Notes under the pieces: generated by a model
What the model was told of the DNA's origin: nothing
Seen by the model: only the letters and a program-made list of their open reading frames with translations
Database searches by the model: none
Position numbers and translations under genes: made by a program
Shown: positions 14,165-22,776 of the stretch, piece by piece
Position numbering within the stretch: position 1 is the stretch's first letter
Layout: every line of letters starts with the position of its first letter
Assembly (NCBI RefSeq): GCF_024228675.1
Contig: NZ_CP100461.1
Coordinates: 2,167,398-2,231,397, forward strand
From: Salinigranum marinum
GTDB taxonomy: Archaea; Halobacteriota; Halobacteria; Halobacteriales; Haloferacaceae
DNA length: 64,000 nt
Direction of reading: 5' to 3'

Positions 14165-14237
14165 CGACCGAACGAAGCGGAGCGAGTGAGGGAGCGAATC
14201 GGTTGGGGAGGGCGTGGCATAACTGCCCTGGCGATCG
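14165..14237. other. Intergenic repeat element, copy A
   Basis: A GC-rich stretch with GAG-rich runs followed by a core (14200-14237) that reads CGGTTGGGGAGGGCGTGGC and ends CTGCCCTGGCGATCG. The same core recurs at 38380-38418 with about 80 percent identity by eye. It lies between the phosphoesterase stop and the 28-bp array, and the array starts inside its last bases. It contains no gene. Confidence 0.55.
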
Positions 14238-14472
14238 ACGTGCACGAGTCCAGTCACACCGATCGACGTGCACGAGTCCAGTCACACCGATCGACGTGCA
14301 CGAGTCCAGTCACACCGATCGACGTGCACGAGTCCAGTCACACCGATCGACGTGCACGAGTCCAGTCACACCGATCGACGTGCACGAGTCCAGTCACACC
14401 GATCGACGTGCACGAGTCCAGTCACACCGATCGACGTGCACGAGTCCAGTCACACCGATCGACGTGCACGAG
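14233..14472. repeat. Perfect 28-bp tandem array, 8 full copies plus 16 bp
   Basis: Eight identical 28-base units run without interruption from 14233 to 14456, followed by the first 16 bases of a ninth (14457-14472). Each unit begins GATCGACGTGCACGAG and ends CAGTCACACC. It contains the 8-bp palindrome CGTGCACG. There are no spacers, so it is not a CRISPR array. The unit length is not a multiple of three, and open frames through it just cycle through 28 residues. The array ends 35 bases before the TATA-like element of the downstream gene. Confidence 0.95.
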
Positions 14473-17112: not shown

Positions 17113-17952
17113 TCAGATGAACACCTGTCCCTCGATCAGCCGCTGGGAGTCCGACACCGCCAGTGCCGACGCCGTCCGGCTGTTGCGGTAGACGGCGTAC
17201 ACCGCCACGACGCTCTCTAGCCGGTCCGGGTCCGCGACGATCGACTCGCGGACGTCGTCGGCAACCTCGACCTCGGCGTCGGCCGCCTCGCACAGTCCGT
17301 CGAGCGTCTCCGCGCGACGCGTCTCCCCCTCGTCGCCGCCGTCCTCGTCTCCGGTGTCGAACAGGTCGAGGTCGACGAGCGTCCCCGTGGGGTACACCTC
17401 GACGACGAACGGTCGGTCCGAACGGGGGTCCGTCATCGGCGGCACCCGAACGCTGTCGCTCAGCACGAGCGGCCTGAGGACGTCCCGGAGGCCGTAGAAC
17501 GTCGACGCGACGATGGGATCGGCGAACGGCGACATCGTGCTCAGCGGGCCGTCGGTCGCGCGGAACCGGGCGTCCGACGAGCTGTCCGTGCGCCGGACGC
17601 GCCGCTCGCACCGCCGACGGAGGTCGTCCGGGCTGTCATACCACGAAGGGAGGTCGCGGACGAACGCCGCCCAGCTCTCCTCGGCGACGACGCCCGCGGG
17701 GAGGCCGAACGGGAAGTCGAGGCCGACGGCGGCTGTCGACGGCAGGTCGGCGAGGAACGTCGTGAGTGTCGGCGTTCCGGGCGACGCCGCCGTCGTGTCG
17801 AACCACTCCTCGACCGGGGCACACCGGTCGACCGAGAGGGTCCCGTCGGTGACGACCCCCCGGGAGACCCACGTCCGTCCCCCCGACTCGCGTTCGTCAC
17901 CGCCGTAGACGATTCCGTAGACGACGGACGGTGGTGTGAAACTCTCACACAT
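17113..17952 (-). CDS. DUF429-like predicted nuclease
   Basis: A 279-residue protein (ATG at 17952; an upstream GTG/ATG would add seven residues). It shows the RNase-H-like pattern of DUF429 proteins: an N-terminal strand with VYGIVYGG, VGLDFPFGLP (about 85-94) with an acidic residue, and a conserved EVYPTGTL (about 190). Other members are proposed nucleases, but no substrate is known. A TTAAGA stretch upstream could be its TATA element. It is the last gene before the integrative element, and its start region faces the split zinc-finger gene. Confidence 0.65.
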   Translation of the reverse strand: MCESFTPPSVVYGIVYGGDERESGGRTWVSRGVVTDGTLSVDRCAPVEEWFDTTAASPGTPTLTTFLADLPSTAAVGLDFPFGLPAGVVAEESWAAFVRDLPSWYDSPDDLRRRCERRVRRTDSSSDARFRATDGPLSTMSPFADPIVASTFYGLRDVLRPLVLSDSVRVPPMTDPRSDRPFVVEVYPTGTLVDLDLFDTGDEDGGDEGETRRAETLDGLCEAADAEVEVADDVRESIVADPDRLESVVAVYAVYRNSRTASALAVSDSQRLIEGQVFI

Positions 17953-18132
17953 TATATCGTATTGATACATCACGGCGTCTTAACCGTACTGGCTCGGCCG
18001 TCCGGCCGTGACGGCGGATTCGGCGACGTCACCGCGACGGCGACACCCGGTGGCGGTCCCCGGTCCCGCCGTCGGTTTCCGCCGACCCGCCGCTCCGAAA
18101 AGCGTATCCGCCTCTCCCCGCAACCGGGAGCT

Positions 18133-18210
18133 ATGCCGAAGACAGAGGAGATCAGGTGCCGCAACGCGGACTGCGAGCTGGACATGTTCGAGAACCATTA
18201 CAACAGTTAA
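18133..18210 (+). pseudogene. 5' half of zinc-finger microprotein gene split by insertion
   Basis: The ATG at 18133 reads MPKTEEIRCRNADCELDMFE and then NHYNS and a stop. The first 23 residues match the intact protein at 19375-19533 at 20 of 23 positions. The part that should follow (TYDVPDDL...) is found 3.1 kb away at 21339-21434. The promoter motif TCCGAAAAG is 39 bases before the ATG, exactly as in the intact copy. The gene is GC-rich like the host DNA, so it is the resident copy, broken by insertion at about 18196-18202. The stub has lost the second metal-binding pair (CPYCG). Confidence 0.85.
18196..18202. repeat. Putative attL core
   Basis: CATTACA, within codons NHY of the split gene. 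Left of it the sequence matches the gene; right of it, it does not. It differs by one base from the candidate right core. Confidence 0.5.
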
Positions 18211-18427
18211 ATAAAGTGTGTATCAGATGCACACCTTGCTCTCAGTTCTTCGGTAATTAAATACAGGGAATATGAAGTAGTCTATCCTCTCTCGACGGAA
18301 AAGGCTCTCTACCATCTGTGTAGACGATATACCCTGAAGAAGTATGAATTCACATCACCAAGTGAAAAGTATCATATGTGAAATTCTAGTCAGCAAGTAC
18401 ATTAGCGAGAACGCCTCTGTTTCTGAT

Positions 18428-18895
18428 ATGAATGCAGACCGACAGCGGAGAAGAACCACACGAAGCCGGCGCAGTATAATGAAAATAGTTGGTTTAGGCA
18501 TATCTGTTGCAATCGCAGGGTGTTCAGGCGATGGAAGACCGGGCGATGGAGAAATAGACGACGGAGGAACAAACGGTAGCGAGTCGACGAACGAGCCCAA
18601 GACTGTAATTGAGATATATCTGAACACATTCTTTGGAGGTGACCCTACGGGATTCAACAAAATACGCCATTCGGATAGCCCGATTTCCGCAGTTGAAGAA
18701 GATCAGCAACTCATCGACATCAACGTCTCTATTGATAACGTAGTCTATATCGTGGAAGAAACTGACCGAATACTGGCTGAAGTCACAACGGTTTCAGATG
18801 GAGAAGATATGGAACCGGTCACTGCCACCCGTGAGATAGAATTACGGACCGAAGATGGACAGTGGAAGTTCTGGTACGATAGTGCACTTGACTAA
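18428..18895 (+). CDS. Tat-type lipoprotein, element cargo
   Basis: A 155-residue protein from the ATG at 18428 (MNADRQRRRTTRSRRS); a further upstream start would place 28 extra residues before the signal. The signal is Arg-rich (TRSRRSIMKI), with a hydrophobic run and the lipobox AIAGC (Cys at about 34). A Gly/Asp/Glu/Ser/Thr linker follows, then a domain of about 100 residues beginning TVIEIYLNTFFGGDP and ending GQWKFWYDSALD. That pattern recalls NTF2-like lipoproteins of haloarchaea, but the match is weak. Codon usage is AT-richer than the flanking genes, in keeping with its place inside the element. Its role is unknown. Confidence 0.65.
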   Translation: MNADRQRRRTTRSRRSIMKIVGLGISVAIAGCSGDGRPGDGEIDDGGTNGSESTNEPKTVIEIYLNTFFGGDPTGFNKIRHSDSPISAVEEDQQLIDINVSIDNVVYIVEETDRILAEVTTVSDGEDMEPVTATREIELRTEDGQWKFWYDSALD

Positions 18896-19374
18896 CTTGC
18901 TCTCCAAACATCAATTGTCTCGTTAATCAAACGAATCGGCATCACATACCCCCTCATTTTTCTATCATTTTGCTCACCTATGTCCATCAAGAGTCAATCA
19001 AGAGTCAATCAGTTATGCTATCATCAATGAATTTCAGTACCAAAACTTCATACAACGGATAGTCACTAGCACGGACATGGATAAAGGCGAACAGCGAGGA
19101 GACCCCCACGACGGTTTGTATTACCCGATGAATCCTTCAGCACCGCTCTGACCGGCTATTTTGAGCTGATATAAGGCCGAATACGGGGCTTATTCACTCG
19201 TCTTTTATATACAGATAGCCGATTGAGCCGACCTTTCGTGAGGGAAATCTGTGTGGCTTGGTGCTGTTTTTGAGGACTGAATCAGGATGGTGTGACCCCT
19301 ACCGGGTGTGGCATTGTAAACGCTACTCATCAGTCTCCGAAAAGAGTATCCGCTGGCCGCCAGTATGTTCACGT
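18896..19374. other. Gene-poor AT-rich stretch of the element
   Basis: No gene is convincing. It contains an 11-bp tandem repeat (AAGAGTCAATC at 18989-18999 and 19000-19010) and a 24-codon open frame at 19077-19151 (MDKGEQRGDPHDG...) that may be a small peptide or a gene fragment. The promoter region of the intact zinc-finger copy (from 19336) closes the stretch. Confidence 0.4.
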
Positions 19375-19533
19375 ATGCCTAAGACTGAGGAAATCAAGTG
19401 CCTCAACACCGACTGTGAGTTAGATATGTTCGAGAATCACTATACATATGATATCCCAGACGACCTCAGTATTGAACACCTACGTTGCCCATACTGCGGG
19501 GAGACAGATTATCTCGAACTAATTGAACTTTAG
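19375..19533 (+). CDS. Zinc-finger microprotein, intact copy carried by element
   Basis: A 52-residue protein (MPKTEEIKCLNTDCELDMFE...) with CLNTDC near the N-terminus and CPYCG near the C-terminus, which together can form a four-cysteine zinc site. It is the complete homologue of the host gene split at 18133/21434: 20 of 23 residues match the left half and 21 of 29 the right half. Its DNA is AT-richer than the host halves, so it is a diverged, imported copy rather than a recent duplicate. The motif TCCGAAAAG at 19336-19344 lies 39 bases before the ATG, as in the host copy. Its stop overlaps the integrase stop by three bases, tail to tail. It probably replaces the lost host function. Confidence 0.85.
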   Translation: MPKTEEIKCLNTDCELDMFENHYTYDIPDDLSIEHLRCPYCGETDYLELIEL

Positions 19534-20708
19534 TCGGGTTTCCAGCCACGTTCCATCGCTTGTTCGCGGGTCTCGTCCGGCTCTAAATGCTCTAAATCGT
19601 CTCCGTTCGTAATCCGGTTGTGGCAGCTACGGCAGACGTCAATGGTCTCTTCCGGAGTGTAGGAGATATGGTGAGTCTCTAATATTTTCCCGCGCTCGTT
19701 ACAGACCGCACAGATTTGCTCCTTGCTGGCCTGCCTTGTGTCGTAATCCACAGTTGGAGCACTAGCGTTGTATGCCTCGTCAACCTGTTCTGAGACGATA
19801 TCTGCGTAAATCTGAGTAGTTTGAATGTCTTCATGAGCCAAAATCTGCTGGAGGTCTTCAAGCGTACCCTTCTTCGGAGGCTGTAAGTAGTGGACACCGA
19901 AAGAGTGACGAAGTGAATGACTGGTCACTCTTCTCCGTTTATTTCCAGCCTTGTCTACGTATAGAACGTCCTGAATACCCGCTCTCTCGGCAGCGTTCCT
20001 AATTATCCGTGAGATATGGTTAGGGTGAATCTTCTCGTTCTTCTGCGTCACAAAGAGATATGAGCTATCAGCAGCGGTGATGTATGAGTCTCGGTAGTTA
20101 TTTTTCCACTCCGTGAGCAGCGGGTCGAGACTGGGCTGCCAGCGGACAGTAATGGTTTTGTCAGTCTTTGGAGAGTATACATCCACTTTCCGGTCATCCC
20201 AGTTCATCTCCTCTAACAGCACATTGGAAACTTCGCTGCGACGGCACGCAGTATAATACATGAACAAGATGATGCAGCGGTTCCTCACTATCGGCTGAGG
20301 AGCATTTTGAACGAGGTCTCTGACCTCATCAATACCGTCCTCTGGGTCTTTCTTCAACCAGACACGCTTCTGTTGTGCTTTTTCCTCTCGCTTGTTCTTT
20401 CGAGAGGCGAAGTCACCCAGTTTCACATCCTCGGTAGGGTTTTTATTCACTACACTATCCCTCTTCAGGAACTGGTACAGTACACGGAGAGTGTTAAAGC
20501 GATTTCTAATGGTATTGTTTGCGTAGTCGTCCTCCCCGAGCTGATACAGATAATCCTCTATCTCCTTCCAAGTTACTTCATCGACCTCAAGACCCTCTGA
20601 ATCAAGGAATTCTGTGTAGTCCCTAAGGTCAGTTCGCTTGTTTCGGACCGTACTTTCGGCACGCTTCTTCCGGTAGTGACGGAGGAAGTCCTCACCTTCT
20701 GGAATCAT
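19530..20708 (-). CDS. Tyrosine recombinase with C-terminal HNH-type domain
   Basis: A 392-residue site-specific recombinase that would integrate and excise the element. The N-terminal SAM-like core-binding domain spans about 1-100, and the catalytic domain about 125-310. Visible catalytic residues are Arg156 (TACRRSEVS), His264 and Arg267 (SHSLRHSFG), His292 (LAHEDIQTTQIY) and nucleophile Tyr301. After the catalytic domain, residues 330-370 form an HNH-like zinc module: Cys333/Cys336, His346-His347, Cys359, Cys362-His363. That addition is unusual for a phage- or plasmid-type integrase. Its start overlaps the stop of the upstream coiled-coil gene (ATGA at 20705-20708), so the two are co-translated. 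AT-rich codon usage marks it as imported. Confidence 0.9.
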   Translation of the reverse strand: MIPEGEDFLRHYRKKRAESTVRNKRTDLRDYTEFLDSEGLEVDEVTWKEIEDYLYQLGEDDYANNTIRNRFNTLRVLYQFLKRDSVVNKNPTEDVKLGDFASRKNKREEKAQQKRVWLKKDPEDGIDEVRDLVQNAPQPIVRNRCIILFMYYTACRRSEVSNVLLEEMNWDDRKVDVYSPKTDKTITVRWQPSLDPLLTEWKNNYRDSYITAADSSYLFVTQKNEKIHPNHISRIIRNAAERAGIQDVLYVDKAGNKRRRVTSHSLRHSFGVHYLQPPKKGTLEDLQQILAHEDIQTTQIYADIVSEQVDEAYNASAPTVDYDTRQASKEQICAVCNERGKILETHHISYTPEETIDVCRSCHNRITNGDDLEHLEPDETREQAMERGWKPD

Positions 20709-21139
20709 ATTCTCTCATCTTGCTTCAGATAATGTTTGTAGCCTTCCTCGCCGATGATTTCGTAGGTAGGGAGGAAATTAGATTTGAGATGCTGTATTGC
20801 GTCCTTGACTTCTCCTCGGTCGACTTCCAATTCTTGTGCTAGCCCGGAGAGGGTCGAAGGGGAGTCAGTATGGCTCAGTGCGTTATGTGCGTGCATCTCG
20901 TCAAGTTCGTCGGAGTTCATATCCGAGTTGGTAATCTCGGCACTATTCGCAGTCGGAGCTACAGGAATCGCATCTAGTACATCTTGAGCGAGTTCCTCGG
21001 TATCTCTACTGTCGTCCGCAAGGTTCGCATTGAGAGACCTGAGCTCCTGATTAACCTCTCGCATCTCGGCTTCCAGTCGTTCGACCTTTTTTATCACCTC
21101 TGGTGAAGGAGAATGGTCTCTTTCAAACTCGCCGGCCAT
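20705..21139 (-). CDS. Coiled-coil protein co-transcribed with integrase
   Basis: A 144-residue protein read from the ATG at 21139 (MAGEFERDHSPSP); the frame stays open upstream to a TTG at 21166. Residues about 18-50 are a heptad-rich coiled coil (VIKKVERLEAEMREVNQELR). The C-terminal 55 residues look like a small helical, winged-helix-like domain (TLSGLAQELEVDRGEVKDAI). Its stop overlaps the integrase start. The position fits an excisionase, accessory DNA-binding protein or integrase regulator; this is inference from context and the DNA-binding-like tail. Confidence 0.7.
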   Translation of the reverse strand: MAGEFERDHSPSPEVIKKVERLEAEMREVNQELRSLNANLADDSRDTEELAQDVLDAIPVAPTANSAEITNSDMNSDELDEMHAHNALSHTDSPSTLSGLAQELEVDRGEVKDAIQHLKSNFLPTYEIIGEEGYKHYLKQDERI

Positions 21140-21338
21140 CTCCTTATTAACCGCTGCTCTGAACAACTGCGATACGCTCTCGTACTTTACGCTGTTCTCC
21201 GCGTACTACTCAATTTCTTCTTTTTTCTCGCCATCTGTTACGATAGGTATTCGAGCCACGGTAGAAGCGCTCTTTCACCAAGCGAATATAAAAATAGGTG
21301 TCGACTACACATTAAATGTGTACTAAAATATAGACGTC

Positions 21339-21345
21339 CACTACA
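21339..21345. repeat. Putative attR core
   Basis: CACTACA, in the HYT codons of the right half of the split gene. An eleven-base sequence that contains it (GTCCACTACAC, 21337-21347) has a near copy just inside the element (GTCGACTACAC, ending at 21310), and a CACATT/AATGTG inverted repeat sits between them, as in integrase arm sites. Confidence 0.5.
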
Positions 21346-21434
21346 CGTACGACGTCCCCGACGATCTCATCCTCGACGACCTTCGGTGTCCGTACTGTGG
21401 GGAGACCCAGTCGCTGGAGCGCATCGAACTCTGA
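21339..21434 (+). pseudogene. 3' half of split zinc-finger microprotein gene
   Basis: The frame reads HYTYDVPDDLILDDLRCPYCG and ends GETQSLERIEL at the stop 21432-21434. There is no start codon; an in-frame stop (TAA) lies just upstream at the element edge. It is the missing second half of the gene that starts at 18133, and it is GC-rich like the host. Together the two halves give a 52-residue protein. Confidence 0.85.
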
Positions 21435-22008: not shown

Positions 22009-22776
22009 TCAGCGGTAGTCGGCGGGCAAGAGCGACGCGAACTCCTTCGATTCGAGCCACGCACAGAGCGCGTCGAGATCCGCGACCGCACCGTCGAGCA
22101 GTCGCTCGCCCGCCGCGGCGGAACCCTCGGAGGGGACGCCCACGACGCCGTTGTCCGAGAAATCCGTGGTGTCGTCCAGCACCATCGCGCCGGCGACGTG
22201 GACGCCCCACACGTCGCCCGCGCCGGCGTCGGCGTCGTCGATCGCGCCCTCGTCGACGAGGTCGGGCGCGAGCGTCCGGACGACGCTCGTCTCCGCCGCA
22301 CCCGCGTGACCGACGTGGGACCGACCGAACAGTTCCTCGTGGTCGGCGTCGCGGTTCGACCACCAGTCCCAGGGGACGACGAACGCCGTCCCGTCGGCGC
22401 GAAGCGCCCGGGCGACCCGGCGGAGCGCGTCGTCGTTCCCGCCGTGGCCGTTCACGACGACGACCTTCCGGAGGCCGTGAGCGGCGAGGCTCTCGACGGT
22501 CTCTCGGACGTAGGCGGCGAACGTGTCGGGCGAGACCGACAGCGTCCCCGGGAACTGGCGATGGTGGCCGCTCACACCGACGGGAACCGGTGGGAGGACG
22601 ACACAGCCCTCGCGGTCGAGTCGGGTGGCGACGGCCGTGGCGGCCCGCGTGTCGGTTCCGAGCGGGAGGTGCGGGCCGTGCTGTTCGGTCGCGCCGGTCG
22701 GAAGGAGGGCGATCTCCGCGTCGGCGAGAAGCGCGGCGGCGTCGGCCGTCGAGGCGTCCGCGAGCGGTGTGCTCAT
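22009..22776 (-). CDS. Creatininase-family amidohydrolase (ArfB-like)
   Basis: A 255-residue metal-dependent amidohydrolase. The metal-binding motifs of the family are visible: TEQHGPHLPLGTD (about 30-42) and VVVNGHGGND (about 105-114), with HVGHAGAAETS later. In archaea, members of this family include ArfB, which deformylates an intermediate of F420/riboflavin synthesis. The assignment to ArfB rests on family resemblance only; a creatininase-like or MftE-like role is possible. It converges on Hsp20 and is about 90 bases downstream of the next gene, which has LLM-like features. Confidence 0.8.
   Translation of the reverse strand: MSTPLADASTADAAALLADAEIALLPTGATEQHGPHLPLGTDTRAATAVATRLDREGCVVLPPVPVGVSGHHRQFPGTLSVSPDTFAAYVRETVESLAAHGLRKVVVVNGHGGNDDALRRVARALRADGTAFVVPWDWWSNRDADHEELFGRSHVGHAGAAETSVVRTLAPDLVDEGAIDDADAGAGDVWGVHVAGAMVLDDTTDFSDNGVVGVPSEGSAAAGERLLDGAVADLDALCAWLESKEFASLLPADYR

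Follow-up and report, generated by a model that had tools for sequence, protein, structure and literature searches.

Which gene has been entered by the integrase encoded at this locus, and what does the extra module at its C terminus contribute? The window, the whole stretch of 64,000 nt of Salinigranum marinum DNA analyzed here, had been the subject of a preliminary description that singled out a tyrosine recombinase followed by an HNH-type module, an arrangement held to be rare among integrases, and that offered three roles for the module: cutting DNA, guiding target choice within coding genes, or serving as a zinc scaffold for DNA contact. We consider it probable that a small integrative element has broken the host gene DUF7559 and replaced it with a copy of its own, that the C-terminal tail is a fused HNH-like scaffold, and that this strategy is a repeated one in haloarchaea. 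The features concerned are listed below by window position.

18133-18201, + strand: 5' part of the host DUF7559 gene, codons 1-23, GC-rich, cut by the insertion (tblastn; joins 21345 in three congeners)
18195-18202, + strand: left attachment core CCATTACA, 8 bp, directly repeated at 21338-21345 with 7 of 8 bases matching
18202-21344, no strand: integrated element, 3,143 bp (42-51% GC against 65-74% in the flanks; congener junctions)
18344-18895, + strand: 183-aa ORF with an RR...AGC lipoprotein-like signal, cargo (ORF; weak family matches only)
19335-19353, + strand: box CTCCGAAAAGAGTATCCGC upstream of the carried DUF7559, common to the host gene's upstream region (alignment with host and congeners)
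19375-19533, + strand: intact full-length DUF7559, element-borne, putative replacement copy (PF24440 match; sole intact copy in the genome)
19530-20708, - strand: tyrosine recombinase (integrase), 392 aa (ORF, family searches, and catalytic residues)
19533-19730, - strand: HNH-like zinc module, integrase residues 327-392 (homology to separate 71-aa ORFs of loci L108 and L109; AlphaFold2)
20705-21166, - strand: accessory gene overlapping the integrase start, coiled coil and winged-helix-like end (ORF; relatives' genes)
21206-21208, - strand: in-frame TAG in the ribbon-helix-helix-like start of the accessory gene (comparison with the upstream genes of L105, L106, L108, and L164)
21338-21345, + strand: right attachment core CCACTACA, an 8-bp direct repeat (7 of 8) matching the left core
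21345-21434, + strand: 3' part of the host DUF7559 gene, codon 24 to stop (tblastn; congener junctions)

The integrase matches PF00589 (Phage_integrase) with 94.5 bits against a cut-off of 27.1 (E = 8e-27, Pfam search), which upholds its identity as a tyrosine recombinase, and family searches place SAM-like domains at its N terminus. The catalytic set Arg156, His264, Arg267, His292, and Tyr301 is complete as first described; these residues and Lys181, previously unlisted, are invariant in an alignment of eight integrases, and the five are conserved to at least 90% in an alignment of 33 rows. The nearest relatives found, G304 and G146 (Halorubrum sp. JWXQ-INN 858), share 38-41% identity, and a single-protein search of genome contigs and viral contigs returned no close relative. 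The integrase gene is intact, with both junctions outside it. An assignment to the SSV-type (suicidal) archaeal integrases, whose gene contains attP and is split on integration, was rejected because the gene is uncut.

The boundaries of the element are defined by comparison with congeners. In G167 and G165, the left flank (17113-18201) abuts the right flank from 21345 exactly, leaving an empty site, and in G166 the flanks join at the same base; the empty-site sequence in the congeners is CCACTACA. The attachment core is short, matching at 7 of 8 bases, and a short direct repeat together with an empty site in relatives is what characterizes insertion of the tyrosine-recombinase type. Insertion within a coding gene, as had been proposed, is confirmed by the halves of DUF7559 at both junctions and by the empty sites in three congeners. 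Junctions and empty sites thus place the integration at the DUF7559 core, while the family of the integrase suggests that it catalyzes the recombination.

DUF7559 (PF24440) is a 52-aa protein with zinc-ribbon-like cysteine pairs and was found in 379 of 392 Halobacteriales genomes, almost always as a single copy. In its own genome, tblastn detected the two host halves and the element copy only. The carried copy covers residues 1-52 of 52 of PF24440 with 97.6 bits (cut-off 27, E = 4.9e-28); it is AT-rich, and its end overlaps the end of the integrase gene. Compared with a congener's gene, it retains 90% amino acid identity but only 40% identity at third codon positions, a pattern expected of a gene that has long resided on an AT-rich element with its protein under constraint. 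No close relative of the carried protein was found in genome contigs or viral contigs by a single-protein search. The attachment core is recoded in the replacement copy, where 6 of 21 bases differ; third positions elsewhere in the gene differ to about the same extent, and we therefore make no claim of immunity to self-targeting. The box CTCCGAAAAGAGTATCCGC, conserved upstream of both genes, is likely a promoter.

Second DUF7559-like copies in G259, G332, G381, G389, G406, G442, and G463 have no integrase alongside and were set aside, and no link was found between DUF7559 and HVO_0758 of Haloferax volcanii, considered as a characterized member. The copy in G442 (L102, 9856-10014, - strand) is truncated after residue 32, near the cut position of the window. 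G463 has one and the same DUF7559 gene close to the end of each of two contigs (L103 and L104), which probably reflects duplication in the assembly or on a plasmid. Secondary contigs of two genomes (L100, 9782-10036; L101, 9918-10079) carry a divergent DUF7559 paralogue (MPRPPHDVVCHNPDCGMDMFELHHSHEM...).

The accessory gene of the relatives combines a ribbon-helix-helix-like start, a coiled coil, and a winged-helix-like end, domain names that were judged from sequence, with no family reaching its cut-off. In the window, the ribbon-helix-helix-like start lies upstream of the ORF at 20705-21166 and is broken by a stop. The gene is possibly damaged, or its translation might begin downstream of the TAG; because the TAG interrupts the start of this gene, the element may now be immobile. 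Outside the element, a perfect tandem array with a 28-bp unit in 8.6 copies (14232-14472) lies just before a dehydrogenase-like gene.

The same design was sought around other integrases by comparing each locus with itself, empty sites having been observed for the window element only. Five further genomes carry a broken host gene together with an intact copy, namely G216, G095, G014, G080, and Halorientalis marina GDY88. In G216 and G095, the host creatininase is cut at about residues 133-136 with the core TCGAGTGGA, and in the elements the integrase and a 71-aa module are followed by an intact creatininase (Pfam E = 3.5e-72) that is richer in AT. The two carried creatininases differ with a dN of 0.07 and a dS of 2.5, indicating that the gene has been under purifying selection while element-borne. 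The same creatininase position is occupied in G014 by a 14-kb element of a different integrase lineage, again with an intact creatininase. In G080 and Halorientalis marina, an ABC-2 permease gene is cut at about residue 90 with the core GGAACGAGTACA, and the intact permease copy begins beside the junction. Creatininase is thus the target in three genomes and for two integrase lineages, and the ABC-2 permease in two genomes and for one lineage. The host halves are GC-rich and the intact copies lower in GC; the contrast is clear in all of these genomes but G014, which shows only a small difference.

The carrier integrases fall in separate places of the integrase tree, and therefore either the strategy arose more than once or its components were exchanged among elements. 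No such pattern was seen at about 60 other integrase loci within the DNA examined around each, a range in which larger elements may be missed, so break-and-replace is a minority strategy among integrase loci. Looser junction matches in L122, L123, L127, and L150 were off the junction or paralogue-like and were not counted. In G216, whose genome is a single contig, 830 kb separate the halves of the split creatininase (L108 and L191), and the element genes beside them are not the same, pointing to a later rearrangement; in G095, the halves are on different contigs. A second step or an assembly limit must therefore be assumed for these two genomes. On the sequences compared, breakage followed by whole-gene replacement appears to recur as a strategy among several haloarchaeal integrase lineages. 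The window itself also has a creatininase-family gene (22009-22776, - strand), about 600 bp away from DUF7559, and a creatininase-like gene is near DUF7559 in G463 (L103 and L104) as well; creatininase is a target of related elements elsewhere, and this proximity is possibly coincidental.

The tail of the integrase was aligned alone; in the large integrase alignment, the separate HNH-like ORF was drawn to the catalytic domain. With the 66-aa tail as the query, a separate 71-aa ORF directly after the integrase was recovered in G216 (E = 2.4e-10) and G095 (Halobellus salinus; E = 3.1e-9), beginning a few bases past the integrase stop in both. The tail and these ORFs share 37-42% identity and 24 invariant columns. 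Because of this homology to the product of a neighboring gene, the tail is more than a chance motif and looks like a gene fusion: the C-terminal module is most likely a former neighboring HNH-like gene, now joined to the integrase. The fused form is absent from about 70 related integrases examined, and the proposed survey for the same fusion, in which overlapping samples of 392, 146, and 125 genomes were searched with the tail, returned no further case, in agreement with the rarity initially claimed. Neither "HNH" nor "zinc" occurs in a FEMS review of archaeal tyrosine recombinases (PMC8371274). Modules of the CxxC...HHxSYxPE...VCxxCHxxIH type are also present in unrelated haloarchaeal and viral proteins, and therefore the module itself is common, its link with integrases being the unusual part. 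In G444, a single 344-aa frame joins a module of this type to a ribbon-helix-helix-like segment downstream of it, with no integrase nearby (L080, 1246-2277, + strand).

Cys333/Cys336, His346/His347, Cys359, and Cys362/His363 occupy the positions given in the preliminary description and, judged by the fold, would correspond to HNH metal ligands. The HNH-like Cys/His layout therefore stands. However, the Asn of HNH is absent throughout the tail group, and the final His of CHxxIH, kept by the relatives, is replaced by Thr367 in the window integrase. Membership in the HNH endonuclease family PF01844 was accordingly rejected, as the tail scores 14.6 bits against a curated cut-off of 21.4, with HH and CH present and Asn and the final His missing; a match to the NCBIfam IscB family has E = 0.011. 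An AlphaFold2 model of the tail alone yields a beta-beta-alpha core of two strands and a helix (pLDDT about 75-86), whereas the whole-integrase model generated without an alignment has a pLDDT of 37. The predicted fold is HNH-like (treble-clef type), but its structural matches are weak, including those to the Gme HNH enzyme 4h9d (probability 0.93, RMSD 2.2) and the IscB HNH domain (Z 4.0), and none is strong (best Foldseek E 0.19, best VIA-align Z 4.0). A search of PDB sequences with the tail profile returned chance zinc proteins only.

Loss of the catalytic Asn and of the last metal-binding His makes a zinc scaffold for DNA contact likelier than a nuclease, and the scaffold best fits of the three roles offered at the outset. 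From sequence and model, we infer that the tail probably binds zinc and has an accessory part in DNA contact or assembly rather than a nuclease function, and that it most likely helps to hold or position DNA or the recombination complex. That the tail is instead functionless, the remnant of a decaying HNH gene that came to be read through from the integrase and is tolerated at its end, is rather unlikely. While the fusion is known from a single occurrence, has lost its last His, and sits in an element whose accessory gene has an in-frame stop, its four zinc cysteines and His346, His347, and His363 are retained, as is the terminal TR..A..RG motif common to the separate ORFs.

The tail might otherwise guide target choice by recognizing the DUF7559 site, giving the element its unusual landing place. 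Zinc domains often contact DNA, and three elements with mid-gene insertion have an HNH-like module fused or adjacent to the integrase. However, G014, where the tail search of the genome sample detected no module, is hit at the same creatininase site as G216 and G095; none was detected near the integrase in G080 or Halorientalis marina; and the standalone modules accompany a target gene other than that of the window. Because these three elements insert mid-gene with no detectable module, the HNH module is needless for insertion inside coding genes in general, and we regard the guiding role suggested earlier as unlikely. Cutting by the tail, as an active HNH nuclease that nicks or cuts the target and helps the integrase to reach coding-gene sites, is very unlikely: the HH pair, the CxxC pairs, and the CH are kept, and the 4h9d and IscB likenesses point the same way, but the missing Asn, Thr367, and the subthreshold PF01844 score argue against activity, coding genes are entered just as well by elements without the module, and tyrosine recombinases make their own breaks. 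It is likewise highly improbable that the complete DUF7559 gene is on the element by chance, or was left by two integrations in succession, and replaces nothing, for although elements often carry host-like genes and the copy lies about 1.2 kb inside the element, off the junction, the intact carried gene is the split gene in six genomes and three target families, and the copies are full length, mostly AT-rich, and under purifying selection where measurable.

In the preferred reading of breakage and replacement, the integrase would recombine attP with the 8-bp core at codons ~22-24 of the host DUF7559, the insertion would cut the host gene, and the complete element-borne DUF7559 with its conserved upstream box would take over. 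This takeover is suggested by the intactness of the carried gene, its conserved protein, and the conserved box, and the carried copy would presumably be expressed and beneficial. We also lean toward a natural class of disrupt-and-replace elements, in which separate integrase lineages use conserved, mostly single-copy targets and carry complete, diverged replacements, with the HNH-like module as a recurring accessory that was fused once. If so, conserved genes would be opened as safe and widespread landing sites, and the integrases would offer new short target sites in conserved archaeal genes. In the usual account of integration into conserved coding genes, the gene end is repaired at the junction. 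Whole-gene replacement would lift this limit and predict where such elements can land, would make the host depend on an element-borne gene, and could account for the odd, AT-rich versions of conserved genes that haloarchaea carry. With the tail, the idea that a recombinase can acquire a zinc domain by fusing with a neighbor becomes testable.

Among known systems, the archaeal type II (pNOB8-type) integrases likewise leave their gene intact after integration and share the R-K-H-R-H-Y set, whereas the window integrase adds the C-terminal HNH-like zinc module and targets not a tRNA gene but a site in the middle of a protein gene. PF01844 and IscB-type HNH domains share with the tail the CxxC...HH...CxxCH layout, and the beta-beta-alpha fold predicted for the tail weakly resembles theirs, but the tail is without the Asn and last His and scores under the Pfam cut-off. 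In synthetic home-and-rescue gene drives, an insertion breaks a needed gene and a diverged rescue copy replaces it. The window element resembles them in this break and rescue; however, it is natural, uses a tyrosine recombinase instead of homing, and gives no evidence of drive. In the literature searched, no description of a whole replacement gene at a coding-gene att site was found, which is weak evidence as most subscription papers lie outside it. Archaeal insertion into coding genes is known, with the gene end repaired (PMC6563490) or the repair left uncommented (PMC8371274). In tRNA-gene islands (Islander, PMC4383910), the target is similarly split and its function restored by the island, but by an end fused at the junction, whereas a complete, separate, and diverged gene is present here. 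A further parallel comes from Thaumarchaeota elements in protein-coding genes, one of them a Zn-finger protein gene, which, like the window element, have a short att core inside a conserved gene (PMC6563490). Those elements insert 3'-distally and supply a new gene end, whereas the window element interrupts DUF7559 close to the middle and carries the whole gene together with an upstream box.
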